Part shown: one piece after another, positions 7,113 through 37,683 of the stretch
How the letters are laid out: the number at the start of each line of letters is the position of its first letter
How positions within the stretch are numbered: position 1 is the first letter of the stretch
Origin: Paracoccaceae bacterium
Lineage (GTDB): Bacteria; Pseudomonadota; Alphaproteobacteria; Rhodobacterales; Rhodobacteraceae
DNA: 38,388 nucleotides
Reading direction: 5' to 3'
Assembly (NCBI GenBank): GCA_902554705.1
Contig: CACDPP010000018.1
Location: 1-38,388 of the forward strand
The notes under the pieces: model-generated
The model's database searches: none
Told to the model about the DNA's origin: nothing
What the model saw: only the letters and a program-made list of their open reading frames with translations
Program-made: the position numbers and the translations under genes

Positions 7113-7170
7113 GCGCTGCAGAGCAACTTATTATGTTGGGACTTTATTTAACAAAGCGGTAAAGTTTGAT

Positions 7171-7560
7171 TTAAACAGCTTCGCTTTCGGTTTTGGAGCT
7201 GCGTAGTAACTCTATATTGGCCGCTAATTGTTCGAAAACTTCGTCGTCGTGTCCAACTTCTTTAGCTTTTTCGAGCGCTATTTTGGCATTTTCAACATCT
7301 TTAACTTCGATTAAGGTGTGAATTATACTTATCCAATATCCTGCAACCGTTGGATTGGTTTCTATAGCAGTTCTTAGAAACTGAACCCCCATAGCTGGTT
7401 CACCTAATTTGGAACAAAGTAACCCAAAGTTATGATTAGCATCTGGATGACTGGGGTCTACTTTTAAAATTTCGAGATATTTTTCACCTGCGATCAGTAA
7501 ATCACCTGCCTCATGTGAAGAAATAGCGCTTTCTAGCGCTGCATCGACGTTATCTAACAT
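7171..7560 (-). CDS. Small TPR-repeat protein
   Basis: These 129 residues are almost entirely tetratricopeptide repeats. Repeats run at roughly residues 5-37 (HEAGDLLIAGEKYLEILKVDPSHPDA), 39-71 (ANHNFGLLCSKLGEPAMGVQFLRTAIETNP) and 73-105, with the typical W/G/Y/A/P spacing. No enzymatic domain is attached, though similar repeats often head larger glycosyltransferase or sulfotransferase proteins. It probably serves as a protein-binding scaffold. The ATG has AGGG 9 bases upstream. It is convergent with the methyltransferase gene; no partner is evident. Confidence 0.7.
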   Translation of the reverse strand: MLDNVDAALESAISSHEAGDLLIAGEKYLEILKVDPSHPDANHNFGLLCSKLGEPAMGVQFLRTAIETNPTVAGYWISIIHTLIEVKDVENAKIALEKAKEVGHDDEVFEQLAANIELLRSSKTESEAV

Positions 7561-7660
7561 TTATAAAATCCCTTCTTATTCGGGGATCATTTGCAATATC
7601 TGTTCCAAGTCATGTAAAAAGTTAAATTATTTCGAAAAATCTACAGAAAAAATTTATTTT

Positions 7661-8644
7661 TTAAGATAATTTAACTTTCTTCTTAGATTTTGATGACTTA
7701 ATTTTATGTAAAATAAGCTCCGTGAGTTTGTTGTCTCTCTCTTTCTCATGTTTTTCAAGTTCACTGAGTTGGTAAAGGTTTAGCAGTTCTTCTTCTAATC
7801 CAAGCTTAACCACTGATGACCATTCGATATCAAGTTTATTGAACATTTCCCCGTACATTTTTTCGTAACGTTTCACGTATCCAGCTATCCCCTCTGGTGC
7901 ATTCAAGTGAATAGTTTGGAAGGGTCCCATAAATGACCATCTAAGGCCGAGACCCTCAGAAATTGCCTTGTCGATATCTTCTGCTGAAGAAACACCTTCC
8001 TTTACGAGATTAAAGGCTTCGCTAAGTAGAGCACCTTGAAGACGGTTAACAACAAAGCCTGGAATTTCTTTTTTCAATTCCAAAGGCTCTTTGTCTATTG
8101 AGATAATAATGTTTTTAACAGCCTTTGTTACGGCCTCGCTCGTGAATGGTGCTGGTACAATTTCTACTGCTGGTATTAAATGAGGGGGATTAATAGGATG
8201 AGCCACAAGGCATCTATTTTGTCCTTTTACATCTTTTGCGTAAAGAGATGCAGGAATTCCAGAAGTTGAGCTGGCAATGGGGATATTGTCTGCTGTTGCG
8301 GCGTCTATTTTTATGGTAAGTTCCTTTTTTATTTCGAGATCCTCAGGCCCACTCTCTTGGACATGAATACTGCCTCTCACGGCATGTGAAAGATCTTGAG
8401 CAAGATGAACTTTATCTAAATAATCGGAAATATTTTTATTTTCGAGTACGCCATAGTTTTTTAGGTCGCCCAGCTTGGCTTTTATTTTTTCTTTAGCTTG
8501 AGCCATAACGCCTTCGACCGGATCAAATAATGAGATATGAAAACCTGCACTTAGGAAACTTATCGCCCATGATTGGCCAATCAAACCACATCCTATTAAA
8601 GCAACTTTTTTTTTCTGATTATTTTCATGTTTTTTTGAAGACAT
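7661..8644 (-). CDS. 3-hydroxyacyl-CoA dehydrogenase family enzyme, lambda-crystallin-like
   Basis: This 327-residue NAD-dependent dehydrogenase has a Rossmann motif at residues 18-23 (GCGLIG) and Asp41 after the second strand. The catalytic segment HPINPPH is at 149-155, followed by the C-terminal helical domain with GFVVNRLQGALLSEAF. The segment MGPFQTIHLNAPEG resembles lambda-crystallin/L-gulonate 3-dehydrogenase and related short 3-hydroxyacyl-CoA dehydrogenases. L-carnitine dehydrogenase is another relative. It oxidises a 3-hydroxy acid or its CoA ester; which one cannot be decided. The C-terminus is unusually Lys-rich (HKIKSSKSKKKVKLS). It is divergent from the GFA protein gene. Confidence 0.85.
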   Translation of the reverse strand: MSSKKHENNQKKKVALIGCGLIGQSWAISFLSAGFHISLFDPVEGVMAQAKEKIKAKLGDLKNYGVLENKNISDYLDKVHLAQDLSHAVRGSIHVQESGPEDLEIKKELTIKIDAATADNIPIASSTSGIPASLYAKDVKGQNRCLVAHPINPPHLIPAVEIVPAPFTSEAVTKAVKNIIISIDKEPLELKKEIPGFVVNRLQGALLSEAFNLVKEGVSSAEDIDKAISEGLGLRWSFMGPFQTIHLNAPEGIAGYVKRYEKMYGEMFNKLDIEWSSVVKLGLEEELLNLYQLSELEKHEKERDNKLTELILHKIKSSKSKKKVKLS

Positions 8645-8722
8645 GCCAAGACCACTACTAAAAAATTTGTTTGAAATTAATTACGTTGACTGTAGCCTAG
8701 CTTTAAAAATGAAACTACAGTT

Positions 8723-9175
8723 ATGGGTCTAAAAATGAAAAAAGCTTGTTTTTGTGGTAAGGTAACGATGGATTTTCCCGAAAAACCTCTTCTACATTTC
8801 ATGTGCCATTGCACCGATTGCGATTCTTTGTGGAACGGGGCATACATGGGTTTTGTTTATCCTACCGATGAGGTCACTATCGGTGGTGATAAATCTACTT
8901 ATCAATTTAATGGCGGCAGTAGTTTAGGTTTTGAGATTGACTTTTGTGCGACGTGTGGAACAAAAGTAGCCTCCCGACCAGAAGTAGTTGACGGATTGAC
9001 TTACATTCCTGCAGGTTTTCTAAAAAATGAAGTGGATTTCTCTCCTCAGGTTGAGATTTTTGCATACAATAAATACAAATGTTTTGGCGATCCGGAGACT
9101 TTAGTTGAAAGTTTTGATCACAATGGGACGGTAGAAAGAATTTCGGCTGTTATAGAAGCAATGAACCAAACTTAA
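8723..9175 (+). CDS. GFA/CENP-V domain zinc protein
   Basis: This 150-residue protein has the cysteine pattern of the glutathione-dependent formaldehyde-activating (GFA) family: C9 and C11 (CFCG), C28/C30/C33 (CHCTDC), and C75/C78 (CATCG). Two zinc ions are expected, one structural and one labile. Most members have no proven activity; some act on glutathione adducts. The second in-frame ATG at 8735 could equally be the start, since neither has a strong ribosome binding site. Its stop codon directly abuts the stop of the convergent adenylate cyclase gene with no base between, leaving no room for a separate terminator. Confidence 0.82.
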   Translation: MGLKMKKACFCGKVTMDFPEKPLLHFMCHCTDCDSLWNGAYMGFVYPTDEVTIGGDKSTYQFNGGSSLGFEIDFCATCGTKVASRPEVVDGLTYIPAGFLKNEVDFSPQVEIFAYNKYKCFGDPETLVESFDHNGTVERISAVIEAMNQT

Positions 9176-10099
9176 TCAATTTTCTAGTTCGCTGATAATT
9201 TCTAGCAATTTATTCTTATCAATCTTCTTTGGGTCGTATTCCAATTTGAGCCCATCCAACTCTTTTATCACTTTGGTGTTTTGAGATTCTTGTCTATTCA
9301 AAACGTAGCTTGCGATAGGTTTATCAATTCCCTTTGCCTTTACTTCAATTGGTAAGGAGGTTTCGAATTTATTTTTTATCAAGTTTTGTACAGTTGAAGA
9401 TACTAGAATAGAATTTTTTGGTGCAGCTTGCTCTAGTCGAGAAGCGACGTTTACGGCTCTACCAATAGCCGTGTAATCAAGCCGTTGTGCGCTACCGAAA
9501 TTACCTACGTTACACAAACCGTTGTGAATTCCCACGCGTACTTCAAGCTTTTCTGGAAAATTATACGTTTCCTGAAAATGCTGCTGGTTGCTCTCAAGAA
9601 AAGCGAGCATCTCCAATGCCATATTACAACACGCGGCAGCATCTTCCTTAGCCCCTTTTGTTTCGGGATCACCAAAAAAAATCATCAGTGAGTCGCCAAT
9701 AAATTTATCGATAGTTCCTCCATATCTCAGAGCAATGTCGCACATGTTAGTAAGATAAAAATTTAGAAAGTTTGAAAGATCTTCAGCTTCCATTTGCTCA
9801 GAAATTGTCGTAAATCCGATAATGTCAGAGAAAAAAATTGTAAGTTTTTTCCTTGCACTTTTGGTTGAGAATTCTGCGCCTGAAAAAATTTTTTCACAAA
9901 TTTGTGGTGAAAGATATTTTGATAGTTGTTCTGAGGCTTTTTGTAATTTGTCTCGTTGCGCGTCTGCCTCGACTTTTGCTTCTTGAACAAGGGATTTTTG
10001 GCGCTCTAATTCACTTGCCAGAGATTTCCTCAAACGTGCTTCCAATTTAAGTTTACTATTTTCTTGTTTAAGTGCTTTTAGTTCTTCAGTACTTTCCAT
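9176..10099 (-). CDS. Class III adenylate cyclase with N-terminal coiled coil
   Basis: This 307-residue soluble enzyme makes cAMP from ATP. Residues 5-60 are a charged heptad-rich coiled coil, probably for dimerisation or signal input. The cyclase domain covers about 83-270. It has both metal-binding aspartates (D92 in FSDIIGF and D136 in FIGDS), the ATP-selecting Lys132 and Asp208 (TIDKFIGD and QRLDYT), and the transition-state residues N217 and R221. All key residues are present, so it should be active as a homodimer. A short tail (about 270-307) follows. No membrane segment is seen, so the signal sensed is unknown. Confidence 0.88.
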   Translation of the reverse strand: MESTEELKALKQENSKLKLEARLRKSLASELERQKSLVQEAKVEADAQRDKLQKASEQLSKYLSPQICEKIFSGAEFSTKSARKKLTIFFSDIIGFTTISEQMEAEDLSNFLNFYLTNMCDIALRYGGTIDKFIGDSLMIFFGDPETKGAKEDAAACCNMALEMLAFLESNQQHFQETYNFPEKLEVRVGIHNGLCNVGNFGSAQRLDYTAIGRAVNVASRLEQAAPKNSILVSSTVQNLIKNKFETSLPIEVKAKGIDKPIASYVLNRQESQNTKVIKELDGLKLEYDPKKIDKNKLLEIISELEN

Positions 10100-10219
10100 T
10101 AAATAAACTTTCTAAACTCAATTGATTTACCTTAAACACAGACTGTTAACCCAAAAAAAATTAATAAGTTTTGATAAAAAAAATTTTATTCACGCTATAT
10201 AGTATTAAAAGGATTCTCA

Positions 10220-10555
10220 TTGAAAAGTTATATTTTTCTATCTCTGGCGATTATTTTGGAAGTTTTTGGGACAATGATGCTACCCGTATCCCAAAATTTC
10301 ACTAAAATTGTACCTACGGTTGCATTAGTAGTTGCCTACGTTTGCTCTTTTTACCTTTTAACATTTGCACTCAAAGCGATTCCAATAGCAGTAGTATATG
10401 CTTCATGGGCAGGTCTTGGTGTTTTTTTAGTCGCCATATTAAGCAAATTCCTTTTTGACCAGTCTTTATCTTGGCAGGTAATCCTTGGACTTATTTTGAT
10501 CATAGCGGGCGTTATTTTAGTAAATACTTTCTCTGGTTCCAATAGTATTGAGTAA
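10220..10555 (+). CDS. Small multidrug resistance (SMR) efflux protein
   Basis: This 111-residue protein has four predicted membrane helices. The essential proton- and drug-binding Glu14 is present (AIILEVFGT), as are Tyr60 and Trp63 in the substrate pocket (VVYASWAGLG). It should exchange protons for cationic compounds, polyamines or guanidinium-type substrates as a dual-topology dimer; which subgroup cannot be told. The start is TTG, backed by AAGGA 6 bases upstream. The membrane fusion protein gene follows on the same strand after about 100 bases, but SMR pumps do not normally use such a partner. Confidence 0.88.
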   Translation: MKSYIFLSLAIILEVFGTMMLPVSQNFTKIVPTVALVVAYVCSFYLLTFALKAIPIAVVYASWAGLGVFLVAILSKFLFDQSLSWQVILGLILIIAGVILVNTFSGSNSIE

Positions 10556-10658
10556 AGTATCTAAGACGATATTGTTTAGTTTTATTTCTAATTTTTGTTG
10601 AAAAATTGATCTGGATGGAAAATAATAACATGTGGGAAAATGTAGGGATAAAAGGGCT

Positions 10659-11597
10659 ATGAAAAATTTCAGACTTTGCGGGTTAGCATTATTTCTTTCA
10701 ATTGTTTCTTCGATGGCCTCCTCTGAAACTAATTTTCAGCCTGTAAGCTTATCCGGTACTGTTTTTGCGAACAATGAGACTAGCCTTTCGTATCAAACTG
10801 GAGGGTGTATAGCCGAAGTTTCTAGCCAATCACTAACATCTTGGAAAACTTACCAAGGTCAAATATTAGTGGAACTGGATGATAGGAATGCCGATCTGGC
10901 GGTCAAAACAGCAGAAGCTAGATTGCTTGATTTAGAAGCTTCAGTAGAAGATGCTGATTTCTCTATTGAAGTTGCAAAAGCAGACGTAGGACGAGTTGAA
11001 GAAGAATTTCAGTTTGTGAAACGTGAATTTGAGAGAACAAAAGTTTTATTTGAACGGGGACTAGTTAACGAAACGACTTTCGAATCTGCCGAGCGGCGAA
11101 AACTAGAAACGACTTTCTCTGTTCAGCGTGCAAAAGAGGCACTTGGGCGTTCTATTGCCTCAAAAAAAAGGTCTTTGATCGCTCTGGATATTGGTAAATT
11201 AGAGTTAGAGGGGCGACAATTAGATTTGGATAAATTAATTGTTCGCGCACCCCACGATGGAATTTTACTAGAGTTTGAACCAAATATTGGGGATTGTGTC
11301 TCTCAAAGTTCGTTGGCAGCAAAGTTATACAGGCCGGAAGAAAAGAGCGTTGAAACATTTATTTTTGTTCAACAGCTTGTAAATGCAGAAGAAATGGGTG
11401 TTGCTGTGGGGAATTCAGTAAACGTAATCAGAACAAATGGACAAATCTGCAAAGGAATTTTTTCTGTGGTTGGTACAGAAGCTGATCTAGAAAGCCAAAA
11501 CGTAAAAGCTATTATCGATTTAGATCCAACTTGTGCTCCTTCGATGTTTCTAAATGAGGCTGTAAAAATTGAGACTGTCTCTGAAAATATCAATTGA
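10659..11597 (+). CDS. Periplasmic membrane fusion protein (HlyD/RND adaptor type), orphan
   Basis: This is 312 residues from the ATG at 10659. I chose it because it begins a signal peptide (MKNFRLCGLALFLSIVSSMASS) and has AGGG upstream; a GTG nine codons earlier adds only polar residues. The order is a beta-barrel/lipoyl half (SGTVFANNETSLSYQTGGCIAEV), a long alpha-hairpin rich in Glu, Lys and Arg (about residues 75-175), the second lipoyl half (LIVRAPHDGILLEFEPNIGDCV) and a barrel domain. Adaptors like this link an inner-membrane RND or ABC pump to an outer-membrane channel. No pump or channel gene follows: a terminator comes 33 bases after the stop. The partner is presumably encoded elsewhere. 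Confidence 0.78.
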   Translation: MKNFRLCGLALFLSIVSSMASSETNFQPVSLSGTVFANNETSLSYQTGGCIAEVSSQSLTSWKTYQGQILVELDDRNADLAVKTAEARLLDLEASVEDADFSIEVAKADVGRVEEEFQFVKREFERTKVLFERGLVNETTFESAERRKLETTFSVQRAKEALGRSIASKKRSLIALDIGKLELEGRQLDLDKLIVRAPHDGILLEFEPNIGDCVSQSSLAAKLYRPEEKSVETFIFVQQLVNAEEMGVAVGNSVNVIRTNGQICKGIFSVVGTEADLESQNVKAIIDLDPTCAPSMFLNEAVKIETVSENIN

Positions 11598-11630
11598 TTA
11601 GGATTTCTAGACCGCTTAGCTAGTTATTAT

Positions 11631-11665
11631 GGAGGCGCATTCGGACTGCGCCTCCTTTTAGTTTT
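11631..11665. terminator. Rho-independent terminator between convergent genes
   Basis: A perfect 9-bp GC-rich stem (GGAGGCGCA at 11631-11639 with TGCGCCTCC at 11647-11655) closes a 7-base loop and is followed by TTTTAGTTTTTT on the plus strand. It ends transcription of the membrane fusion protein gene and, since stem symmetry allows, may also help the convergent 5'-nucleotidase gene. Confidence 0.9.
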
Positions 11666-13231
11666 TTATTGTGTTACTTCTATGCGACCATCTAAGTAAG
11701 GTTGGTATCCATTCTGTTTTGCTAAAAATTCAGCGGTTACGTCTGCTAAATCTGGGCCATAATCGTAAGCATTTGAGGCACCTCTAAACATTTTATAGCC
11801 ATCACCGCCATTTCTTACATAATTGTTTGACACAACTTTGTATGTTTTTCCCAAATCAATTGGTGATCCTCCAACTAAGACTTTAGAGATTCGTGATCCA
11901 ACCTCTGCTGAAGGGTTTACAGTAAAGGATAGGCCAGCAACTTGTGGAAACCGTCCTTTAACTTCCTCCATCTGGCTTACCCCATTTTCAAGTGCTGCAA
12001 CGATGGTTTCACCAGTGACTTCAAATGTTGAAAGTGTATTCTGAAAGGGGAGTACAGTTAACACATCGCCCATGGTTACATCTCCTGCGCCAATTGATGC
12101 TCTCAGGCCGCCACCATTCTGTATCGCAATTTCAACACCCTGACTGGAAACGCGTTCTAGCATAGCATCTGCAACCAGATTTCCCATTTGGCATTCTCTG
12201 ACTCGACAGTTTGCACGATCACCATCAATATCAGAAGCTGCATTTGCAACGACTTTATTTTTCATTTCTTCAATTGGAGCTCCCATCTCGGCGATACGTG
12301 CTGCAGTTTCTTCATCAGGAATTATTGATGCATCAAGCAAAATTGGATCACCTGAAGCAGAGGTTACATTCCCAGATCCATCGAAACTGACTGTTAGCTT
12401 GCCAAGGTATTTTGTGTAAGCATAAGCTTGTACAACTGGTACTGAACCAACCATTTCAGGGTAAGAGTAATTACTTCCTTCTTCATTCAACATTTTGCTA
12501 TGGCTGTGCCCGCCTATAATAAGGTCAATTCCAGGAACGCTTTTCGCTATTTCAATGTCCATCGGAAGACCAACGTGAGTAAGTGCGATAATTTTATTGA
12601 TGCCATTTGCTTCCATTTTTGCAACATCTTCCTTAAGAGCTGCTATCTCATCCATAAATTTAACATTATCGCCAGGACTGGAAGTATCTACAGTATCAGT
12701 GGCTAGAGCAGAAACTATCCCAATTTTTTGGCCACCTATATCTATAATCACTGAATCTTTCACATGATTTTTCAGAAGTGGTTCCTTGCTTAAATCGAGA
12801 TTGCCCGAAACTACTGGAAATGAAACTGCATCTATAAATTTTGCGAGGCCTTCTGGCCCATCATCAAACTCGTGGTTTCCAACAGCCATGGCATCGTAAC
12901 CAATAGCTTCCATGAATTCCGCTTCTGCAGCACCTTTGTAAGTTGTATAAAAAAGAGAGCCCTGAAATGGATCGCCTGCATCAAGAACTAAAATATTTTG
13001 ACCAGATAACTCTGACCGTTGCATATCAATAGCGGATTTAATTCGTGCAATGCCACCAAAGCATTTACGCTCTGCTTCCCCATCGGCATTACACGTTGAG
13101 TCATATTTATTAATGGACTCAATTCGGCTATGGATATCGTTTGTATGTAAAATAGTCACATTAAATTCTGCCAATGCAGCACTTGCAGAAATTGCGGTAG
13201 CTGCACCTACAAAAAATGAAAATAGTTTCAT
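11666..13231 (-). CDS. Periplasmic 5'-nucleotidase/2',3'-cyclic phosphodiesterase family protein
   Basis: This is 521 residues from the ATG at 13231. Three upstream in-frame starts are possible, but GGAG lies 6 bases before this one and directly abuts the ATG at 13237, and this start gives a clean signal peptide (cleavage after ALA21). The metallophosphoesterase domain shows all metal motifs: HTNDIH (29-34), DAGD, GNHE, THVGL and GGHSHS. The C-terminal 5'-nucleotidase domain contains the substrate-stacking region (NGGGLRASI and NNYVRNGGDGY). It removes phosphate from extracellular nucleotides or UDP-sugars, supplying nucleosides and phosphate. The gene stands alone, and the terminator at its 3' end is shared with the convergent fusion-protein gene. 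Confidence 0.9.
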   Translation of the reverse strand: MKLFSFFVGAATAISASAALAEFNVTILHTNDIHSRIESINKYDSTCNADGEAERKCFGGIARIKSAIDMQRSELSGQNILVLDAGDPFQGSLFYTTYKGAAEAEFMEAIGYDAMAVGNHEFDDGPEGLAKFIDAVSFPVVSGNLDLSKEPLLKNHVKDSVIIDIGGQKIGIVSALATDTVDTSSPGDNVKFMDEIAALKEDVAKMEANGINKIIALTHVGLPMDIEIAKSVPGIDLIIGGHSHSKMLNEEGSNYSYPEMVGSVPVVQAYAYTKYLGKLTVSFDGSGNVTSASGDPILLDASIIPDEETAARIAEMGAPIEEMKNKVVANAASDIDGDRANCRVRECQMGNLVADAMLERVSSQGVEIAIQNGGGLRASIGAGDVTMGDVLTVLPFQNTLSTFEVTGETIVAALENGVSQMEEVKGRFPQVAGLSFTVNPSAEVGSRISKVLVGGSPIDLGKTYKVVSNNYVRNGGDGYKMFRGASNAYDYGPDLADVTAEFLAKQNGYQPYLDGRIEVTQ

Positions 13232-13377
13232 ATTCATCTCCTTGAGTTTTGCTAGTTTGTCAGGCCTGCATAAACGCAAGTTAATTTCAAAAACATATTT
13301 ATAACAACGATTCTTTGTTTGGCACGCCTGAAGGTTTTATCTTCAATAAAAAAGCTGATTATGTTATCGTTCTTCCA

Positions 13378-14529
13378 ATGTTTCCCGTTGAATTCAATAT
13401 TGTTTACGAAGACTTTTCTCAAAATCCGTATCCGACACTTTCTAAATTAAGGAAGAAGGCTCCAATATCATTTGTACCACAACTAGGTGCAATTTTGCTC
13501 TCAAAACATGAAGACATATTCGTTTGTGAAAAAAATATATCGGTATTTTCTTCAGTACAGCCCGATGGTCTTATGACGAGATTGATGGGTCAAAATATGA
13601 TGAGGAAAGATGGTGAGGAACATAAAAAAGAGCGCCATATAATTTTTCCGACGATTTCACCCAAAACCACACAGAATGTCTGGAAACAAAAATTCATAAG
13701 TCATACAAAGAAAATTCTCGATAATCTTTCAGATCATCAAGAAATAGATTTGGTAAACGAATTTGCCAAACCAGTTTCAGCAGAAGCATTAAAGTCCATC
13801 ACAGGTCTTACAAATATGACTTGGCAAGAAATGGATCGTGTGAGCCAAGGAATGATTGACGGTTGTGCAAATTATACTCAAAATAAGGTAGTCGAAGAAA
13901 ATTGTAACAATTGCACTGCCTCCATTGATCTTCACATTCAAGAAAGATTGGATCAGGATTTAGGTTCTGACCCCTCACTATTATCTGTTTTTGCATTGAA
14001 AAACGAAAAATTTGAAACAATTTCTGCGAACGTAAAATTAGCTATCTCTGGAGGCCAGAACGAACCGCGAGATGCGATTGCTGGTACCATTGCCACGCTG
14101 TTGCAAAACCCAAAACAGCTTGAAAAGATATTAAATGGTGAATTTAATTGGCTGAAGGCATTTGAGGAGTATGCTAGGTGGATGTCTCCTATCGGAATGT
14201 CGCCAAGGCGAATAGCAAAAGATTTTTCTTATAAAGATTTTAATTTTTTTGAGAATGATCGCGTGTTTTTAATGTTTGGTTCGGCTAATCGCGATGAGGA
14301 TATTTTTGAAAAACCAGATGAATTCAAACTGGATCGAGATGTAGCTCGATCAATATCGTTTGGGGCAGGCCCTCATTTTTGTGCCGGAGCATGGATCTCA
14401 AAAACACTCATTGCCGAAGTTGCTATTCCAATGCTTTTTGAAAAATTTCCGAATATTAAATTACTCTCCGGAGTGGAATATTCTGGTTGGGCCTTTAGAG
14501 GCCCGAAGCCATTCTTTGTGAAAGTATAA
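13378..14529 (+). CDS. Cytochrome P450
   Basis: This soluble haem-thiolate monooxygenase has 383 residues from the ATG at 13378. An upstream TTG at 13315 would add 21 residues not typical of the family; neither start has a clear ribosome binding site. The K-helix ExxR is present as EYAR within FEEYARWMSP. The haem loop FGAGPHFCAG (about 14356-14385) supplies the Cys ligand. In the I helix, where most P450s have (A/G)Gx(D/E)T(T/S), the sequence is SGGQNEPRDAIAG (about 14050-14080), so Asn-Glu-Pro replaces the usual acid-Thr pair. No ferredoxin or reductase gene is nearby. It is tail-to-tail with a membrane di-iron hydroxylase gene, 3 bases apart. The substrate is unknown. Confidence 0.88.
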   Translation: MFPVEFNIVYEDFSQNPYPTLSKLRKKAPISFVPQLGAILLSKHEDIFVCEKNISVFSSVQPDGLMTRLMGQNMMRKDGEEHKKERHIIFPTISPKTTQNVWKQKFISHTKKILDNLSDHQEIDLVNEFAKPVSAEALKSITGLTNMTWQEMDRVSQGMIDGCANYTQNKVVEENCNNCTASIDLHIQERLDQDLGSDPSLLSVFALKNEKFETISANVKLAISGGQNEPRDAIAGTIATLLQNPKQLEKILNGEFNWLKAFEEYARWMSPIGMSPRRIAKDFSYKDFNFFENDRVFLMFGSANRDEDIFEKPDEFKLDRDVARSISFGAGPHFCAGAWISKTLIAEVAIPMLFEKFPNIKLLSGVEYSGWAFRGPKPFFVKV

Positions 14530-14532
14530 AAT

Positions 14533-15552
14533 TTAAGTTTGGGTCTTAGTTGGAAATTTTTCCTGATTTTTCTTGCTCAGCCTAGCGCGCAAGTTGTTGA
14601 ACGACTCTTCGCTACCGTCATGAAGCGTACCGAACCAACGATCCAAGGGTAAAATACCATCCGCATAATTGCATTCAAAATACTTGTGATGGAGGTAATG
14701 TGCATAGCTATCAAGATCAAAGCTAGTTTGCTCGTCAGTTTTTATTCTTTCAAATCCAGTGTGACCTGGCGCTGGACTTAATCCTGCGTGAACTAAAGTC
14801 ACAATTATAAAGGCTGGGTGGAATGGAAAAAAAAGATAAAGAAGAGCGCATGAAAAATAAAAAATATGCTCTATCGGGTGCATAGCCAGCCCTGACCATG
14901 GGCCCGGGTTAATATTTCTGTGATGTGTCTTATGGGCCAACTTGTATAATGGCTCAAAGTGAATAAGTCGATGAATGAGGTAAAAATGAAAATCACGCCA
15001 AAGGTGGATTAACAAAATCATAGCAACGAAATAAAACATATTCTCATCAAGGCTGATTAAACTCAAGTTCCCGCTTGCTGCAAACCACAAGATACAAATT
15101 TCAAAACAAGTCCAAATTAGAACACCACTGCAAAAAGTCAGAAAAATATTATCCTTAGTTTGGTTATCAAAGAGAAATTGTTTTGAATTTTCTGAAGGCC
15201 ATCGTGGGTTATATTTAAAATCTGTGTCTTGTGCCCGCTGAATGTATAGTCGATAGTGAAAAGTTCCATAAAATATTAATACGAGCCCACTGTTTTTAAT
15301 AAAAACTAAAAGACAAGTGATAATTGTGAGATTTGCATAATCTTCAAGTGGTGGAGATAAAGCAAACCATGATATTAAACCAATTCCGACATAAAAAAGG
15401 TTCCAGGGTAAAAAATAACCAGGAACTGAGAAAATCCATTTTAGTGCTCTGATAGGTGCTAATGGCCAAACAAAAACAGGTGGATAGCCCACGCGTTTTT
15501 TAGGTACATAGTTCCCCTTATAACTGCGGTCGCCAAATTTTTTTTCGTGCAT
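14533..15552 (-). CDS. Sterol desaturase/fatty acid hydroxylase superfamily membrane protein
   Basis: This integral membrane di-iron oxygenase has 339 residues from the ATG at 15552; a TTG four codons upstream is equally possible. Hydrophobic segments occur around residues 40-60, 65-110, 140-190 and 235-265. The histidine clusters of the PF04116 family are present in order: HRLIH (after HLWRDFHFYLI), HKTHH, and HYLHH near the C-terminus, followed by DRWFGTLHDGS, a typical ending (RLFGT). Members act on sterols, fatty acids, carotenoids or ether lipids. The position next to a P450 on the opposite strand is suggestive of lipid or isoprenoid oxidation but they cannot form an operon. Confidence 0.85.
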   Translation of the reverse strand: MHEKKFGDRSYKGNYVPKKRVGYPPVFVWPLAPIRALKWIFSVPGYFLPWNLFYVGIGLISWFALSPPLEDYANLTIITCLLVFIKNSGLVLIFYGTFHYRLYIQRAQDTDFKYNPRWPSENSKQFLFDNQTKDNIFLTFCSGVLIWTCFEICILWFAASGNLSLISLDENMFYFVAMILLIHLWRDFHFYLIHRLIHFEPLYKLAHKTHHRNINPGPWSGLAMHPIEHIFYFSCALLYLFFPFHPAFIIVTLVHAGLSPAPGHTGFERIKTDEQTSFDLDSYAHYLHHKYFECNYADGILPLDRWFGTLHDGSEESFNNLRARLSKKNQEKFPTKTQT

Positions 15553-21967: not shown

Positions 21968-23761
21968 ATGACTGAAGTTCAAAGAAAGTTCGCAACGATT
22001 TTAGCAACCGATTGTGTTTCTTTCAGTAAACATATGGCCGAAAACGAGGAAGGAACTCTCTCAAGTTTAAACAGTTGTAGATCAATCATTGATGAATATA
22101 TCGAGAAACACGGCGGAAGAATTTTCCATACAGCCGGAGATTCTGTCTTGGCAGAGTTTAACAGTCCAGTAGAAACAGTAAATTGCGCAATAAGTTTTCA
22201 AGACAGAATTTACGAAAGAAACGAAACACTGACTGAAGAAAGTGGCGACAGCCCATTACTTTGGAGAGTTGGTGTGCATTGTGATGAAGTAATCTTAGAA
22301 AATGAAAATGTTTATGGGAATGGCGTAAACATAGCAGCGCGGCTAGAAGCTCAGTGTTTGCCAGGACAAATCTTAGTTTCTCGAGCGATTAATGAACAAG
22401 TAGTTTCAAGGATTGAAGCAATTTCTCAGGCTGCTGGTAAGAAAAAACTAAAAAATATCTCTGATGAATTTGAAGTCTTTTCAATTTGTTCTGAAAAAAC
22501 AACCATTTTGGGGGCACCTCCAAAACCTACCAAGGAGCAACGTGAAATAAAGGCACAGAAACCAATAGTTTCAATTCTTCCTTTTAAGAATTTAAATGCT
22601 AATGAGGATAGTGCATTTTTAATTGATGGGATTTTCGAAGATATACTCACTGAGCTGTCGATGGTTAGGCAGGTGTCAGTTGTATCAAGACAATCAAGCA
22701 TGAATTTTTCTGAAAGTGGAGAAAATTTAGAACAATTCATTTCTCAGTTCAGTGTAAATTTTCTAATTCAAGGTTCCATCAGGTCTGCTGGACCTCGTGT
22801 TCGAATAACTGTTTCTCTAATCGATGCTGATACTCAAGAGGTTTTATGGAGTAAAAAGTTTGATCGCACTCTTGATGATATTTTTGAGGTACAAGATGAA
22901 ATTGTCAGAAGTGTTATAAAGGAAATTTTAGGTGAAATTGAGCTAGCTAGCCTGACTAGGGCAAAGCGAAAGCCGACCGAAAACATGAGCTCTTACGAAT
23001 TTCTCCTTAAGGGGAAAGAAGGCCATCATACTCTTACTGCTGAAGCTAACGCGAACGCACTCGAGATGTTTGATGCTGCTATTGAAGCTGATCCTGACAA
23101 CGCTCAAGCTTATGCCTGGAAAGCATGTACTTTAGGTCAAGCTATGGTCAGAGGTTACGTCGACAAGCCAATGCAAGAAATTATGCCAGAGTTCAGTAAT
23201 TTGATGTCTAGTGCCCTCAGCATTGATCCAAACGATTTTGAATGTCATCGTCTTCAGTGCGCAGTGAACACAATGATGGGTGATATGAAAGCAGCATTAG
23301 AGCACGGAAAGAAGGCTTACGACGTCAATCCAAATGATCCAAGAATACTGCAGCAATATGGCGAAGTGTTGCTTAAAACAGGCAAAACGGAAGAGGGGTG
23401 TGATTTAACTCTGCTGGCATTAGAGTACGATCCTATTGCACAGGGTCAAACGAATAGTGATAAACGAAAAAGTGATGGTGTTTTTGGTTGCGTTTTAGAT
23501 GATCGTCCAGATGTCGGTTTGGATATAGCATCAGGAATGATAGACCGATCGGAAAAAGTCCTGGTATACTCAGCTGCGCTTGCTGTTGCTAACACTGGGT
23601 CACTGCAAAATTTTTCATGGTTAATAGAAGACTTGAAAAACGCAGATTTTGCGCAAATTGAAGAAGCTATCGAGGAAATGGGTAAATTCGATGTCGTGGT
23701 TCAAAGTAAACTGAAAGAAGTTTTTCTAGATTATATCTTACCGTTAAAAGAAGTTGCTTAA
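21968..23761 (+). CDS. Class III cyclase fused to TolB-like and TPR domains
   Basis: This 597-residue cytoplasmic signalling protein has three parts. Residues 5-175 are a class III cyclase domain with both metal aspartates (D15 in ATDCVSF and D58 in TAGDSV) and the catalytic N121 and R125 (GVNIAARLE). Residues 195-325 are a TolB N-terminal-like domain (VSILPFKNLNANEDSAFLIDG, then VNFLIQGSIR and WSKKFDRTLDDIF). Residues 340-480 hold TPR repeats (ANALEMFDAAIEADPDNAQAYAWKA and later). This order is common in alphaproteobacterial cyclases. The usual ATP-selecting Lys is replaced by His54, and the Asp partner position is Asn, so substrate preference is uncertain. GGGGAAGG precedes the ATG. The stop overlaps the 3' end of the MFS gene by four bases. 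Confidence 0.87.
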   Translation: MTEVQRKFATILATDCVSFSKHMAENEEGTLSSLNSCRSIIDEYIEKHGGRIFHTAGDSVLAEFNSPVETVNCAISFQDRIYERNETLTEESGDSPLLWRVGVHCDEVILENENVYGNGVNIAARLEAQCLPGQILVSRAINEQVVSRIEAISQAAGKKKLKNISDEFEVFSICSEKTTILGAPPKPTKEQREIKAQKPIVSILPFKNLNANEDSAFLIDGIFEDILTELSMVRQVSVVSRQSSMNFSESGENLEQFISQFSVNFLIQGSIRSAGPRVRITVSLIDADTQEVLWSKKFDRTLDDIFEVQDEIVRSVIKEILGEIELASLTRAKRKPTENMSSYEFLLKGKEGHHTLTAEANANALEMFDAAIEADPDNAQAYAWKACTLGQAMVRGYVDKPMQEIMPEFSNLMSSALSIDPNDFECHRLQCAVNTMMGDMKAALEHGKKAYDVNPNDPRILQQYGEVLLKTGKTEEGCDLTLLALEYDPIAQGQTNSDKRKSDGVFGCVLDDRPDVGLDIASGMIDRSEKVLVYSAALAVANTGSLQNFSWLIEDLKNADFAQIEEAIEEMGKFDVVVQSKLKEVFLDYILPLKEVA

Positions 23762-24975
23762 CTAGCTGGTTGTAAACCTTTGAATTTTGAATTTCGATTA
23801 CGCATTATTAAAAATAGGACGATACCTATATTTAGGAAATTCCATATTATACCATTCCAAAAAGCAGCCGCGTAAGAACCCGTGATATCGTAAATCCAGC
23901 CCGACATCCAACCGCCGATTGCCATCCCCATTATGGTGCACATCATGACAAAGCCTACGCGTGTGCCGGCTTCTGCACTGGGTAGATACTCGCGAATAAT
24001 AATTGCGTAACTTGGGACGATACCACCCTGTGATAATCCGAAAACTGCCGAAACGATGTAAAGAGATACCAAACCATCAAAGGGCAGATACAAAAAAAGT
24101 GCTATGCATTGAAGAGTGGATCCAATTAATAGAGTATAAACTCCTCCTAGTTTATCAGCCAGCAAACCGTTTATAAGCCTTGAAATTATGCCTCCTATCA
24201 GCATTAAGGATAACATTTCAGCACCCACAGCTGGGCCGTACCCCAAGTCAATGCAGAACGCGACGATATGAACTTGAGGCATAGACATTGCAACGCAACA
24301 ACCAACGCCCGCGATCGAAAGTAAAATTGTAAGCATTCTGGGGGATATGTTTACGCTTGATCTTCTATTCTCGGAGGCGGCGTCAGACACTCTAGAAGTT
24401 TCTTCGCTGATTTTTTTAGTAAGCAAAAAAGACAAAGGGATCATTACAAAAATAGTGGCTAGTGCCAGTATTCCGTATACATCTCTCCAGCCATCTGATT
24501 GTAAGGCACTATTAAAAAGGGGAGGCCAAATTGCACCGGAGAAGTAATTTCCGCTCGCAATTAGGGCAACGGCTATGCCACGTCTCTTTAAAAACCAATG
24601 AGAAGTATCTGCGATGAGTGGGCCAAAAGATGCCGCGGTGCCAAAGCCAATAAAGAATTGTAATATACTAAGTAAATAAACGTTATTCACTTGCATGGCT
24701 GCGATATAGCCTACGGTGTTAATTATAGCTGCGAGAATAATTGTTTTTGTTATCCCATATTGGTCAACAATACGTCCCATCACTCCGTTACCAATAGCGA
24801 AGCCAACCATTGTTAAGGCGAATGGAATAGATGCTGTGCTCCGATCAATAGTAAATTCTTGCTGTATGTCTGGTAGTATGATGACAACCACCCACATGCC
24901 TATATTGCCTACTGTCGCTACTAAAAGAGCAATAAGCAGTCGGAACCAGGAGTATAAACTATCGTGCTCTTTCAT
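23758..24975 (-). CDS. MFS transporter, probably anion/monocarboxylate type
   Basis: This 405-residue inner-membrane carrier has 12 predicted helices. The loop 2-3 MFS signature is recognisable as GRIVDQYG near residue 66 and repeats in weakened form after helix 8 (NGLLADKLGG). The segments ADTSHWFLKRRGIAVALIASGNYFSGAIWPPLF and GVGCCVAMSMPQVHIVAFCIDLGYGPAVGAEMLSL are like oxalate/formate and monocarboxylate MFS members. The gene lies 92 bases downstream of the MBL hydrolase on the same strand, so a hydrolysis product of that enzyme might be the cargo; this is speculative. Confidence 0.87.
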   Translation of the reverse strand: MKEHDSLYSWFRLLIALLVATVGNIGMWVVVIILPDIQQEFTIDRSTASIPFALTMVGFAIGNGVMGRIVDQYGITKTIILAAIINTVGYIAAMQVNNVYLLSILQFFIGFGTAASFGPLIADTSHWFLKRRGIAVALIASGNYFSGAIWPPLFNSALQSDGWRDVYGILALATIFVMIPLSFLLTKKISEETSRVSDAASENRRSSVNISPRMLTILLSIAGVGCCVAMSMPQVHIVAFCIDLGYGPAVGAEMLSLMLIGGIISRLINGLLADKLGGVYTLLIGSTLQCIALFLYLPFDGLVSLYIVSAVFGLSQGGIVPSYAIIIREYLPSAEAGTRVGFVMMCTIMGMAIGGWMSGWIYDITGSYAAAFWNGIIWNFLNIGIVLFLIMRNRNSKFKGLQPAS

Positions 24976-31280: not shown

Positions 31281-34200
31281 ATGTCCATAAAAACAGATAC
31301 TTCTGATGGTAAATGGCAGTTCTGGATAGATCGTGGAGGCACGTTCACTGATATAGTTGCAAAGTCACCGGACGGATCTTTTAAAAACTCGAAATATCTC
31401 TCTGAAAATCCGGAACAATATAAAGACGCTGCCATCCAAGGAATTCGTGATTTTTTGAAAATTGATAATAATAAAAAAATCAAAGAATTGGATGTCGATT
31501 GTGTAAAAATGGGAACGACAGTGGCGACAAACGCTTTGCTGGAGCGAAAAGGAGATCGAACGCTTCTTCTTATAACTGAAGGGTTCCGGGATTTACTTCG
31601 AATAGGATACCAAGCGAGGCCAAAACTTTTCGATTTCAATATTATATTACCTACTCCTATTTATGAAATGGTTGGTGAAATCAAAGAAAGGTTAGACGCA
31701 GAAGGTGAAATAATTGAGCCATTAGATGAGGCGAAGGCTCGTGAGGGTTTGAAATCAGCTCGGACTAAAGGAATTAAAAGTGTCGCTATCGCTTTAATGC
31801 ATAGTTATTTGAACCCAATACACGAAAAGCGGATTGCACAAATAGCTGCTGATGAAGGGTTTGAGCAAATTTCAATTAGTCATGAAATTTCACCTCTTAT
31901 GAAATTAGTTGGCAGGGCGGATACAACCGTTATCGATGCTTATTTATCTCCAATTCTGAAGCGTTATGTTGCTCAAATATCTTCAGAATTTGATACAGAT
32001 TATGCAGCGCGACTTTTATTTATGCAGTCAAATGGCGGTTTAACAGATGCAAATATTTTCAGAGGAAAAGACGCTATACTTTCTGGCCCGGCCGGTGGAG
32101 TTGTGGGTATGGTCAAAACTGCGCAAAGTGCTGGATTTAACAAATTAATTGGTTTTGACATGGGTGGGACTTCTACTGACGTCTGTCACTATAATGGCGA
32201 ATTTGAAAGAAGTTTTGAAACAGAAGTTGCCGGTGCACGGGTCCGTGCTCCTATGATGGATATACACACAGTTGCGGCTGGCGGTGGATCAATTTTATTC
32301 TTTCGAGATGGACGGTTTCAGGTTGGTCCCGAAAGTGCTGGAGCAAATCCAGGCCCTGCTTGCTACCGAAGAGGGGGCCCATTAACGATAACTGATTGCA
32401 ACGTTATGTTAGGCAAGCTTCAAGCGCTCCATTTTCCATGTGTTTTTGGATCTAATGCCGACCAGCCAATAGATGTGTCAATTGTTGAAAACATGTTTAA
32501 AGAGTTTGCTGAAGAAATATCAATGAAAACAGGGAACAAACCTTTGCCGGCTGTAGAATTGGCAGACGGGTTTTTGCGAATAGCTGTCTCTAATATGGCC
32601 AACGCTATCAAAAAAATCTCTATACAAAGAGGATATGATGTAACGAAGTATGCGTTACAATGTTTTGGCGGCGCAGGAGGGCAACACGCATGTCTGGTAG
32701 CTGATGCTTTGGGCATTCAAACCATTTTTATCCATCCTTTCGCAGGTGTCCTTTCAGCCTATGGTATGGGACTAGCTGAAATTCGCTGTATGAAAGAGAG
32801 CCAATTTGAGCGTTCTCTTACTGATTATCAAGAAGCATTAGCGCTCCTTTCAGAATTATCAGAAAAAGCTACAGACCAAGTTGTATCTCAAGGGGTTCCT
32901 CACGACGACATAATTGTAGAGTGTAGAGCGCACTTACGGCTGAAAGGATCACATCAAGCACTTATGGTTAGTTTTGGTAATTTGGAAGAGTTAAAAAAGC
33001 GTTTTGATGAAGCCCATCGCGCACGCTATGGGTTTTCTAGTGATGGAAGAGAGCTCATATTTGAGGCCTTAAGTGTTGAGGCAATAGGTGGCGCATCTGA
33101 AATTAAAGAGGCGGTTTATGAAGAAGTGAAGCAAGCGCCAGTAGCAGTCGATATAGTAAAAATGACTAGTCAAGGAGAGTTAATAAAAGCTCCACTATAT
33201 GAGAGATCTTTGTTGAAACCAGGGCAATGGATTTCTGGACCAGCAATTATAAAGGAAACCACAGGTACAAATATTATAGAGCCAGGTTGGAGTGCTAAAG
33301 TTAACGAATTCCGACACCTCATTTTAGAAAGAAAAGTGCCTATAAATAGAAAAGAGGCGATTGGAACGAAAGCAGATCCAATTATGCTGGAAGTTTTCAA
33401 TAGCTTATTTATGTCGATAGCTGAGCAAATGGGAGCAACTCTTGCCAACACTGCATATTCTGTAAATATCAAAGAAAGGCTCGATTTTTCATGTGCACTG
33501 TTCGATCCTAAGGGTGGACTAGTGGCAAACGCCCCTCATGTTCCGGTACATTTAGGAAGTATGTCTGGGTCTATTAAATCAATTATTCGACAAAATCCAA
33601 ATATGAAACAGGGTGAAGTTTTTGCACTAAATGCGCCATTCAATGGGGGTACTCATTTACCTGACGTTACCGTTATTACTCCAGTTTTTGATGATGATGG
33701 AGAGATTCTGTTTTTTGTAGCCTCACGTGGACACCATGCCGATATCGGAGGTAAAACCCCTGGATCAGCGCCTCCTGACAGTCAAACTATTGAAGAAGAA
33801 GGCGTATTAATTGATAATTTTAAGCTAGTGGAGAATGGCAATTTCAGAAGGCAAGAAACCAAAAAACTTCTTGGTTCTGGAAAATATCCCTGTAGAAACA
33901 TTGAGGAAAATCTAGCAGATTTAGCTGCTCAAGTTGCTGCAAACGAAACAGGGGTTCGAGAAGTAAACAAGATGATCGAACAGTTTGGCGTTAAAGTTGT
34001 ACATTCCTATATGCGCTATGTGCAGGACAACGCCGAGGAATGTGTTAGACAGGTTCTAGCCAGACTGAAAGGCGGAAAAAGCGAATATGAATTGGATAAC
34101 GGTAAATTCATAAGAGTATTGGTAAGCGTAGATAAAAAAGCAAGAACAGCAAAGATAGATTTTACAGGAACAGCCGCAAAAGATCCACTCAATTACAATG

Positions 34201-34898
34201 CACCGCTAGCCGTTTGTCATGCTGTAGTACTATATGTTTTTCGCAGCCTCATCGGCAAAGAAATTCCATTAAATGAGGGATGCTTTCGTCCGCTGACAAT
34301 CATAGCCCCTAAGGGGAGTATGATCCATGCTGAATATCCCTCAGCGGTTATTGCCGGAAATACCGAGGTGAGCCAGTTAATGTGCAATGCACTTTTGCAG
34401 GCATTGGGGGTCATGGCCGGCAGTCAGGGAACAATGAATAATTTTGTGTGGGGAAATGATGATACGCAAAACTACGAAACAATCTGTGGTGGAAGTGGTG
34501 CAGGTTCCAATTTTAATGGATGTTCTGGTGTTCAAACCCATATGACTAACACCAGAAGTACGGATCCTGAAATTTTAGAGTTTCGTTTTCCTGTGAGAGT
34601 TGAGGAAATGTCAATAAGGGTTGGGTCAGGTGGTAATGGAAAATTTACTGGTGGTGATGGGATAACTCGACGTTTGCGCTTTCTTGAGCAAATGACGGTA
34701 ACAACTTTGTGTTCCCATAGGCGGGTGCCTCCAAAGGGTCTAAATGGAGGCGAAAATGGCGAGGCAGGAAGCGAATGGATTGAGCGTCAGAATGGAAGTA
34801 TCGATAGGCACAATGGAAATGATGAAAACGAATTATATCCTGGTGATGTATTTGTAATGCAGACACCTTCTGGAGGTGGGTTTGGCACTAAAAACTAA
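31281..34898 (+). CDS. 5-oxoprolinase (ATP-hydrolysing), fused HyuA-HyuB type
   Basis: This 1205-residue enzyme has both subunits of the hydantoinase/oxoprolinase family in one chain. The N-terminal hydantoinase A part (residues 13-690) has the ATP-binding DRGGTFTD at 17-24 and GFDMGGTSTDV at 291-301. Hydantoinase B begins near residue 699 (DPIMLEVFNSLFMSIAEQMGATL) and ends with the glycine-rich PSGGGFG. The opening motif and single-chain form resemble the 5-oxoprolinase of animals and some bacteria, which opens 5-oxoproline to glutamate with ATP; N-methylhydantoinase is a relative. AAAGGTGG precedes the ATG. It is convergent with the M24 gene, 28 bases apart, and may act with the amidase genes beyond. 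Confidence 0.9.
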   Translation: MSIKTDTSDGKWQFWIDRGGTFTDIVAKSPDGSFKNSKYLSENPEQYKDAAIQGIRDFLKIDNNKKIKELDVDCVKMGTTVATNALLERKGDRTLLLITEGFRDLLRIGYQARPKLFDFNIILPTPIYEMVGEIKERLDAEGEIIEPLDEAKAREGLKSARTKGIKSVAIALMHSYLNPIHEKRIAQIAADEGFEQISISHEISPLMKLVGRADTTVIDAYLSPILKRYVAQISSEFDTDYAARLLFMQSNGGLTDANIFRGKDAILSGPAGGVVGMVKTAQSAGFNKLIGFDMGGTSTDVCHYNGEFERSFETEVAGARVRAPMMDIHTVAAGGGSILFFRDGRFQVGPESAGANPGPACYRRGGPLTITDCNVMLGKLQALHFPCVFGSNADQPIDVSIVENMFKEFAEEISMKTGNKPLPAVELADGFLRIAVSNMANAIKKISIQRGYDVTKYALQCFGGAGGQHACLVADALGIQTIFIHPFAGVLSAYGMGLAEIRCMKESQFERSLTDYQEALALLSELSEKATDQVVSQGVPHDDIIVECRAHLRLKGSHQALMVSFGNLEELKKRFDEAHRARYGFSSDGRELIFEALSVEAIGGASEIKEAVYEEVKQAPVAVDIVKMTSQGELIKAPLYERSLLKPGQWISGPAIIKETTGTNIIEPGWSAKVNEFRHLILERKVPINRKEAIGTKADPIMLEVFNSLFMSIAEQMGATLANTAYSVNIKERLDFSCALFDPKGGLVANAPHVPVHLGSMSGSIKSIIRQNPNMKQGEVFALNAPFNGGTHLPDVTVITPVFDDDGEILFFVASRGHHADIGGKTPGSAPPDSQTIEEEGVLIDNFKLVENGNFRRQETKKLLGSGKYPCRNIEENLADLAAQVAANETGVREVNKMIEQFGVKVVHSYMRYVQDNAEECVRQVLARLKGGKSEYELDNGKFIRVLVSVDKKARTAKIDFTGTAAKDPLNYNAPLAVCHAVVLYVFRSLIGKEIPLNEGCFRPLTIIAPKGSMIHAEYPSAVIAGNTEVSQLMCNALLQALGVMAGSQGTMNNFVWGNDDTQNYETICGGSGAGSNFNGCSGVQTHMTNTRSTDPEILEFRFPVRVEEMSIRVGSGGNGKFTGGDGITRRLRFLEQMTVTTLCSHRRVPPKGLNGGENGEAGSEWIERQNGSIDRHNGNDENELYPGDVFVMQTPSGGGFGTKN

Positions 34899-34926: not shown

Positions 34927-36081
34927 TTAGGCAATTATTACATCATCAATCGATTTTGGATGGGCCGTAAGAGGTTCCCACCCGGTTTCGGTCATAATTA
35001 CGCTATCTCCGACTTGAGCTCTAAAAGTCTCTCCTGAAACAGACCCGTCCACTGCAAAAACCATTCCTGGTTCCAGAATGGTTTTATCTCCAGTGACCAA
35101 TTGAGGTTTTTCCAAAAAGCTGAAGCCTGTAGCGCGGCCACAGCGAAAAGGATAATCAAAACCGGCATCTTGAATTACTGTTGCATAAGCGGCGTGTACG
35201 CTTTCTGCTGTCACACCCGGTTTAAGGACGTCCAAGGCCGCTCTCTGACTCGCTATGGCAACTTCATAAATTTTGATTTGAGATTTATCAGCAATTCTAT
35301 CAATCCAAAAAGTTCTATCGAACCCAAGTTTAAATTTGTGAAAATTTGTCATACCACAGAAACAAAGAAATACCGGCTCACCGGTTTGCATTATTCGCGT
35401 GCTGGCTCGGTGGTGAGTTTTAGTGATAGCGTCTCCCGATGCCATGATTTGCAAAAAATGAGTATTGGGTGACATAAATTTGTCTTCATATTCACTTTCT
35501 AAAATTTCAGCTGCTTTTTGGGTACCAGCATTTGATGTGGCTATCGCCACTTGGTATTCTGCTACACCGTGGCCTATCGCTTCACGACCAGCTGCCATCA
35601 TTGCGGTTGCAACTTTACCTGCATCACGGGCAATTTTTAGCTCTTCTTCTGATTTTATCATTCTCATAGTGCTCAAAATTGGAGTTGCGGATGTAATTCT
35701 GTCGTTTGACACCTCTGCGTCTATATATCTCCTAACGATCGGAGGCATCTGATCTGGCTCAATAGCTAGACGCTTGGACCTTTTTAAAACACTTGGTAGT
35801 TTTTCTCTCCACTCATTTCCCATGCCATCATTCCAAGCTGATATTCGGTCTACGCAAGCAGTTTCTTCGGCCGTGTTCAGATCTATCGTAGGAGTTATAA
35901 GGAGAGTTCCATGATCTATTGAGATGACCAGTAAGGTTGGCCGTCCAAATTCCATATGAAGATAGTCATAATAGCCGCACAAGTAGTAAACGTTATCTTC
36001 ATCCGTTATTATTGCAGTATCTATATCATTTTCTAGAAGCTTATTTTTTAATTTGGATAGTCGGCTTTCAAAAACTGTCAT
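34927..36081 (-). CDS. Creatinase-like M24 family protein without metal ligands
   Basis: This 384-residue protein from the ATG at 36081 has a creatinase N-terminal domain (residues 1-140; ESRLSKLKNKLLENDIDTAIITDEDNVYYLCGY) and a pita-bread C-terminal domain. Peptidases of family M24 have five metal ligands (D, D, H, E, E). By eye, all are lost here: LID becomes FLC, the second D becomes G in GFDRTF, the His is missing in RATGFSF, VEP is VDG, and the last Glu is Gly in QVGDS. Creatinase and ectoine hydrolase also lack metals and cleave C-N bonds, so hydrolysis of a small cyclic or amide compound is more likely than aminopeptidase activity. The ATG overlaps the stop of the M20 gene as ATGA, so the two are translationally coupled. 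Confidence 0.85.
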   Translation of the reverse strand: MTVFESRLSKLKNKLLENDIDTAIITDEDNVYYLCGYYDYLHMEFGRPTLLVISIDHGTLLITPTIDLNTAEETACVDRISAWNDGMGNEWREKLPSVLKRSKRLAIEPDQMPPIVRRYIDAEVSNDRITSATPILSTMRMIKSEEELKIARDAGKVATAMMAAGREAIGHGVAEYQVAIATSNAGTQKAAEILESEYEDKFMSPNTHFLQIMASGDAITKTHHRASTRIMQTGEPVFLCFCGMTNFHKFKLGFDRTFWIDRIADKSQIKIYEVAIASQRAALDVLKPGVTAESVHAAYATVIQDAGFDYPFRCGRATGFSFLEKPQLVTGDKTILEPGMVFAVDGSVSGETFRAQVGDSVIMTETGWEPLTAHPKSIDDVIIA

Positions 36082-37230
36082 ACCGAATTTGATCCCTCTG
36101 TAGAAAGGCGATTTTTTGCAAGACTGGTCCAAAAATCAGCACCAATTGGTAAGAGATCATCATTAAAATCATAATCGCTGGAATGGAGCGGTTTATTGTT
36201 TGCTCCATCTATCCCATTTCCTAAAAGCAAAAAAACAACTGGGTACGGCATTACTGAAATGGGCAAAGTCTTCTGAAAAACTCATAGGTTTACAGTCAGT
36301 GATTTTAAGGCCTATTTTTTTTGCAGTTTTTAAAACTGCTTCGGTAGGTTTGATATGATTAATCGTTTCTATAAATTCAGTTTTAAATGACACTTCAATT
36401 TCAATGTCATGCGCAGATGCTATACCATTAGAAATTTGGTTTAAGTAAAGCTCTATTTTTTTTCGATCATCAGGTCGCCTTGTTCTGACATCACCCTTCA
36501 GAATAGTTTCACCAGGCAGAACATTTCTCTGCCCATTAGAAATAAATTCAGTCACTGAAACCACTGCGCCTGATCCAGAAGCAATTTTTCTAGAGATAAT
36601 AGTCTGGAGGGCTTGGACAACCTCGGATCCAATAGTAATGGCGTCTCGCCCCAATTGCGGCATTGAGGAGTGTCCTCCCATACCTTTAATTTTTATTTCA
36701 AAGAGGCTTTCCGAAGAACAAATTATTCCAGATCGTGTTAATAGTTCTCCCGTTGGAACTCCTGGAAGGTTATGAATGCCATACATTTCTTGTATGGAAA
36801 AATTTTCTAATAAGCCCTCATCCATCATGGCTTTAGCGCCTAATCCAAGCTCTTCATTGGGTTGAAAAATAAAAACTATAGTTCCACTGAAATTTGCATT
36901 TGTAGAAAGTTTATGCGCAGCCCCCAAAAGCATCGCCATATGACCGTCATGTCCACAAGCATGCATAACACCTGTATTTTTCGATACGTAATTGTGACTG
37001 TTTGTCTCGGGGATGGGTAGAGCGTCCATGTCGGCTCTTAGCCCAATGACTTTACTGCCTTCACCTGAGCGAAGGATGCCCACTATTCCTGCACCATAAT
37101 GAACTTCTAATCCTAGTTCTTTTAGATAACCGGCTATTTTTTGTTTAGTCCTTTTCTCTTTGAAACCAAGTTCTGGGAATCTGTGAAAGTCACGCCGAAT
37201 TTCTACTAAGTTTTCGGATTTCAAATTCAT
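36078..37230 (-). CDS. M20 family amidohydrolase, frameshifted near its C-terminus
   Basis: This is an M20D-type N-acyl amino acid or amide hydrolase. The frame from 37230 runs to a stop at 36193 (345 residues). It has the metal and catalytic motifs HACGHDGH (C92, H94), PNEE (126-127) and YGIHNLP (H153), and GGHSSMP. It then ends in a non-homologous tail after FSNAVPSCFFA. The missing C-terminus (FLLLGNG..GANNKPLHSSDYDFND..PIGADFW) lies in another frame down to 36078. Removing one A from the seven-A run at 36229-36235 joins them into a 383-residue protein of normal family length. The C-terminal His in PLH is a metal ligand, so the product is probably inactive without this correction. The next gene overlaps its stop, which supports the longer frame. 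Confidence 0.82.
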
Positions 37231-37326: not shown

Positions 37327-37683
37327 TTATCCAGCGTCGCCCCAAATACCGTGAAATTCATACGCGATTGCTTTTGTATCGCCGACAACCCATGCGTCAT
37401 GCCCAGGTTCGATTGAATATGCATCTCCTGCAGTGTAGGTAATTTCTGAGCCATCATCATGGCGGCAGGTTATTGTTCCTTCTACTATCACTCCGAGATG
37501 TTTGGCTTGGCAACTTTCAGTGCCCACTAGTGGTTTTATGTCTTTAGACCATACCCATCCTGGTTGGGCTGCAATTTTCATAACTCTATTACCGCCCACG
37601 TTTACAATTTCTACTTTCGCATTGTTGGGTTCCATTACTTCAGCCGCTTCTGTGGCAAAGGTCTTTTTTTCAACTGATGACAT
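37327..37683 (-). CDS. Small cupin-domain protein
   Basis: These 118 residues form a single cupin barrel. The segment ESCQAKHLGVIVEGTITCRHDDGSEITYTAGDAYSIEPGHDAW holds the cupin motif region with H/E-type residues (KHLGVIVEG; the later His is in PGHDAW). The N-terminal 40 residues are a strand-rich extension. The fold binds a small ligand or metal; many such proteins are unassigned. AAGGAG lies 8 bases before the ATG. It is upstream of the M20/M24 pair on the same strand, but 96 bases and a hairpin lie between, so it may be a separate unit. Confidence 0.8.
   Translation of the reverse strand: MSSVEKKTFATEAAEVMEPNNAKVEIVNVGGNRVMKIAAQPGWVWSKDIKPLVGTESCQAKHLGVIVEGTITCRHDDGSEITYTAGDAYSIEPGHDAWVVGDTKAIAYEFHGIWGDAG

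Follow-up and report, generated by a model that had tools for sequence, protein, structure and literature searches.

A one-base frame break in an M20 amidohydrolase gene of a draft Rhodobacteraceae genome

Frame changes at homopolymer runs are known from transcriptional-slippage genes and from single-cell and draft genome assemblies. For the former, the available portion of PMC1088944 describes selection against slippage runs as evident at 9 nt in a large proportion of genomes, this length differing between bacteria. For the latter, a benchmark of a single-cell genome workflow is quoted in the accessible parts of PMC8443664 and PMC5712423 as giving 3.0 indels per 100 kbp, a figure absent from the accessible part of the benchmark paper itself (PMC5519541).

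The window analysed here comprises 38,388 nt, the full length of contig C18 in a draft genome (G000; 1.85 Mb, 79 contigs, 69% complete) of a marine Rhodobacteraceae genus. Judged from its kin, the draft appears to be a single-cell assembly. The three nearest named kin are the isolates AG-343-P20, AG-422-J09 and AG-359-N23, and AG- names are presumably those of single-cell genomes. In this draft assembly the gene of an M20 amidohydrolase, an ordinary enzyme that cleaves peptides or amides, is broken by one extra base, with its C-terminus intact in the next frame. The original prediction had said as much from the letters alone, and both the matches of related proteins in two frames and the comparison of the site among relatives confirmed it.

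The frame break and its surroundings

The main frame of the TIGR01891-type M20 gene occupies positions 36193–37230 of the minus strand and encodes 345 aa without the family C-terminus. Even truncated, it scores 294 bits against TIGR01891 (cut-off 153.75) and retains the HACGHDGH, NEE and IHN stretches, but the complete C-terminal catalytic segment of the family is not present in the same frame, which ends at 36193 with the segment in the next one. Reading the frame bore out the claim that it ends in a tail foreign to the family: ...VPSCFF is followed by AFRKWDRWSKQ, the final residues before the stop being SEDFAHFSNAVPSCFFAFRKWDRWSKQ. The second frame, at 36078–36281 of the minus strand, contains LLLGNGIDGANNKPLHSSDYDFNDDLLPIGADFWTSLAKNRLSTEGSNSV and encodes the family end LLLGNG...PLHSSDYDFND...GADFW, with matches to related proteins over about 36081–36242. 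Its TGA overlaps the ATG of the following M24 gene as ATGA. Positions 36229–36235, read directly, are seven A on the plus strand and hence seven T, followed by GC, on the coding strand of the gene.

The proteins of five same-genus genomes (G010, G008, G007, G006 and G002) each matched the window first in one frame and then in another, the two joining at 36223–36242, with identities of 79.6–91.7% before the shift and 65–89% after it, and a chance reading of the second frame was ruled out by these matches. The 46 codons after the shift include no window-specific amino-acid changes and two synonymous ones, so that the frame is still protein-like there. Deletion of one A had been predicted to restore a protein of 383 residues; the restored length is indeed that of the intact M20 proteins of G010 and G008, but the frame is not set by run length alone. 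The histidine of the PLH stretch, which lies past the shift, aligns with a conserved His in the structures 1ysj, 4ewt and 1xmb. We take this residue to be a metal ligand, and the suggestion that such a histidine is cut off from the main frame is plausible.

The M24 peptidase or creatinase-like gene (34927–36081, minus strand) is intact, and its convergent neighbour is a fused hydantoinase A/B gene of the oxoprolinase type (31281–34898, plus strand). Also in G010, G008, G007, G006 and G002 the M20 and M24 genes adjoin the hydantoinase gene. Upstream of the M20 gene is a small cupin-like gene (37327–37683, minus strand), for which the Pfam score of 21.6 bits was below the cut-off of 27.2 and NCBIfam gave no matches. 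Two further M20 paralogues are present in G000, with 42 and 47% identity, the second being a partial sequence. Identification of the two genes as the ectoine degradation pair DoeA/DoeB2 was rejected: M24 remained below the equivalog cut-offs (DoeA 74.1 against 613, DoeA_2 72.0 against 575), and M20 scored 283 against 550 for DoeB_2, its intact G010 relative reaching 316.2.

The site and the gene among relatives

Sixteen same-genus genomes, one per species, were searched, and ten of them, the window's own included, had an orthologue with an identity of 59% or more. Eight of these were in one frame, with open frames of 382–394 aa. Apart from the window's gene, eight of the nine thus read straight through the site, and the ninth, that of G003 (L119:6640-7690, G003:C24), is broken elsewhere by deletions of 54 and 46 nt, the adjacent M24 gene being intact. 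At the site itself, with all ten orthologue rows in coding orientation and in register, G007, G010 and G006 read TGTTTTTTCC in frame (T6 then CC) and G008 reads TGTTTTCTCC; G002, G013 and G009 have T7 then C, also in frame, and G004 has T6 then C. The window reads T7GC, one base more than all nine others, G003 included. The extra base had originally been placed in the run itself. Some close relatives do have T6 there, but because three intact ones carry T7 in frame, the length of the run does not by itself account for the lesion, and the alignment suggests that the added base may be either a T or the G, with one substitution besides.

The ATGA overlap with M24 had been taken to indicate that the longer frame is the selected one. 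The overlap is present in the window and common to G010 and G008, but it is not fixed, because the G007 gene stops four codons earlier and that of G006 likewise ends at ...STEG.

Among the best 80 of 583 confirmed loci of wider relatives, with L032-L034 coming from G007, G010 and G008 again, 77 reach the C-terminus in one frame, two are cut by contig ends and one is shifted. The alignment of wider relatives was made without L005, L007, L008 and L010 of its 88 rows, which had the wrong orientation. The shifted locus (L107:3001-4638) is an M20 relative from Thauera butanivorans that loses its frame close to the same position, in a GC-rich sequence.

Codon changes were assigned to the window branch with G007 and G010 as sisters and G008 as outgroup. 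The branch has 7 nonsynonymous and 11 synonymous changes in the 329 codons of M20 before the shift, 4 and 16 in 382 codons of M24, and 3 and 14 in 693 codons of HyuAB. M20 at 7:11 does not differ significantly from M24 and HyuAB taken together at 7:30 (p = 0.19). Since the ratio is 7:11 and the codons after the shift have no amino-acid changes, selection kept M20 until very recently. A long-dead pseudogene was ruled out by the same ratio together with the conserved downstream frame, which point to recent constraint.

Leaving aside residue 335, which lies at the shift, the window has ten amino-acid changes of its own. Three of them (P145S, I149M and G331S) fell on sites with a conservation of 75% or more in an alignment of up to 85 relatives, compared to one of 25 for three kin (Fisher p = 0.06); the 75% threshold was set once the list of changes was known. 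The sharpest of them is Gly331 to Ser, where 83 of 84 relatives have Gly; the base concerned, 36240, is 5 nt from the run. The run is flanked by window-specific substitutions at 36228 and 36240, but this clustering of changes at the lesion was given no weight as a signal, as 15-nt clusters of five or six are found elsewhere. From the aligned sequences, the conserved-site changes would lean weakly towards a real loss of the gene.

Frameshifts in the assemblies

Samples of three genomes were compared via each other's ORFs. In G000, where G010 ORFs matched 139,650 bases and G008 ORFs 77,433, that of M20 was the one coding frameshift, G010 had three distinct frameshifts (138,762 bases by G000 ORFs, 89,040 by G008 ORFs) and G008 had none (76,818 and 90,228 bases), all these base counts being upper bounds that include overlapping ORFs. 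Nor did any frameshifts turn up in the more limited samples of G006, G007 and G002 (15,957, 5,901 and 5,340 bases, respectively). Five flagged pairs upstream of a likely start codon, the starts being the author's judgement, were set aside, as was one flagged pair in an ORF antisense to a gene. The first set of relatives' stretches gave no match to positions 1–14542 of the window.

The three frameshifts of G010 are located at a C8 run in an MFS transporter gene, an A7 run in another gene and an A6 run in the gene of elongation factor P. The transporter gene is split at about positions 6558-6568 of L112 (G010:C10), and the window copy at 23758–24975 is intact. The elongation factor P gene (L113:7256-7832, G010:C10) changes frame at its A6 run, the part after the break scoring 191.3 bits (cut-off 185.8), and this split is probably an assembly error.

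If the benchmark rate in its quoted form is applicable, about 1.15 indels would be expected in a stretch the size of the window, and 4.2 in the 139.65 kb in which one coding frameshift was seen (P of one or fewer = 0.08). As 4.2 were predicted and one was seen, the actual rate of error in this genome may lie below the benchmark.

Origin of the extra base and comparison with known systems

Two explanations are left, an artefact and a recent real loss, both of them ordinary. We consider it slightly better than an even chance that the extra base is an indel from the making of a draft, probably single-cell, genome, be it at whole-genome amplification, at sequencing or at assembly. One of these steps would have added a base at the M20 site which the cell's own DNA would lack, and in the cell M20 would be whole, a metallo-amidohydrolase with a complete C-terminus whose translation overlaps that of the M24 peptidase. 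That the housekeeping elongation factor P is broken likewise in the sibling G010 points to homopolymer frameshifts as a class of error, and the selection that kept M20 until very recently also speaks for an artefact. Against an artefact stands G331S, since the change at base 36240 is a substitution and is left unexplained by a homopolymer indel error. A genuine, recent loss-of-function mutation in the lineage of this cell, with M24 kept, is a serious contender that we place somewhat short of even. The truncated M20, without the C-terminal segment bearing the histidine, would then probably be inactive, and the base may be a product of ordinary slippage or may have arisen together with the substitution next to it in a single event. 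Natural loss of M20 is possible because the G003 orthologue, with its two deletions beside an intact M24, is independently broken; the two other M20 paralogues of G000, the share of changes at conserved sites, Gly331 to Ser among them, and the ratio of changes in M20 relative to its neighbours also agree with a loss. Neither of the two tests, however, gave a value below 0.05, the conservation cut-off was picked afterwards, and the same kind of break is found in the elongation factor P gene of the sibling. With so few nonsynonymous changes and a downstream frame that has not altered, any loss would also be very young. If the loss is real, this is the second genome in the genus with the M20 partner broken and M24 kept, and translation of the main frame would end 111 nt short of the M24 start, so that M24 might be reduced.

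It is unlikely, in our estimation, that the lesion arose in one template-switch event, in which T6CC would have become T7GC by copying from an inverted arm, M20 being silenced and M24 kept. The candidate arm, GCAAAAAAAA on the coding strand at 36315–36324 (minus strand), matches TTTTTTTGC of the lesion in inverted orientation, and a switch of this speculative kind would account at once for the added base and for the change from C to G. Of the T7GC sites in the DNA sampled, 32 in all, the M20 lesion is the one with an inverted arm within 100 nt, where the chance expectation from word density is about 0.3; this comparison was made once the site was known. Even less probable, to a degree that we regard as very slight, is programmed or leaky slippage on the T7 run giving a minority of full-length enzyme and setting its amount, or use of the run as an on/off switch. 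The conserved downstream frame would fit such slippage, as would the rescue of genes frameshifted at poly-A or poly-T that the available part of PMC3017870 reports in insect endosymbionts and the rise of within-run deletions with run length in Buchnera described in the accessible text of PMC5574713. That same text, however, gives insertions as prevailing in homopolymers in the transcription of E. coli and Buchnera, with most deletions outside runs, and the run here, at 7 nt, falls short of the 9 nt given for many genomes in the portion of PMC1088944 referred to above. The two-frame layout occurs in none of the eight intact same-genus orthologues, the single-frame copies among the best 80 of 583 wider relatives likewise argue against it, and in the sampled G000 DNA the 296 mechanically listed ORFs contain 284 A/T runs of seven or more (T7 or longer 95 times, A7 or longer 189 times). 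Programmed slippage setting the amount of active enzyme, one of the options originally put forward, was therefore rejected on the conservation of the layout, the run length and the commonness of such runs. Some caution follows for drafts of this marine genus, in which conserved genes, elongation factor P included, show homopolymer frame breaks: because conserved genes break at homopolymers, a lone frameshift in such a draft is not to be read as regulation.

Compared with described M20 amidohydrolases (YxeP 1ysj, 4ewt and the plant ILL2 1xmb), the HACGHDGH, NEE and IHN stretches align via the intact G010 copy, whereas the PLHSSDYDFND segment of the window is in another frame. The locus shares with transcriptional-slippage genes (9A/9T, IS elements, Blochmannia) a frame break at a run and a conserved second frame, but differs from them in that its run is of seven bases followed by G and in that the layout is not kept in its kin. 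With homopolymer frameshifts of single-cell and draft assemblies, the class to which an artefactual indel would belong, it has in common that one base is affected, that the place is an A/T run and that the gene is otherwise conserved, and the sibling G010 has three such breaks at A/T or C runs; the difference is that the site in the window is flanked by a substitution at a conserved position.
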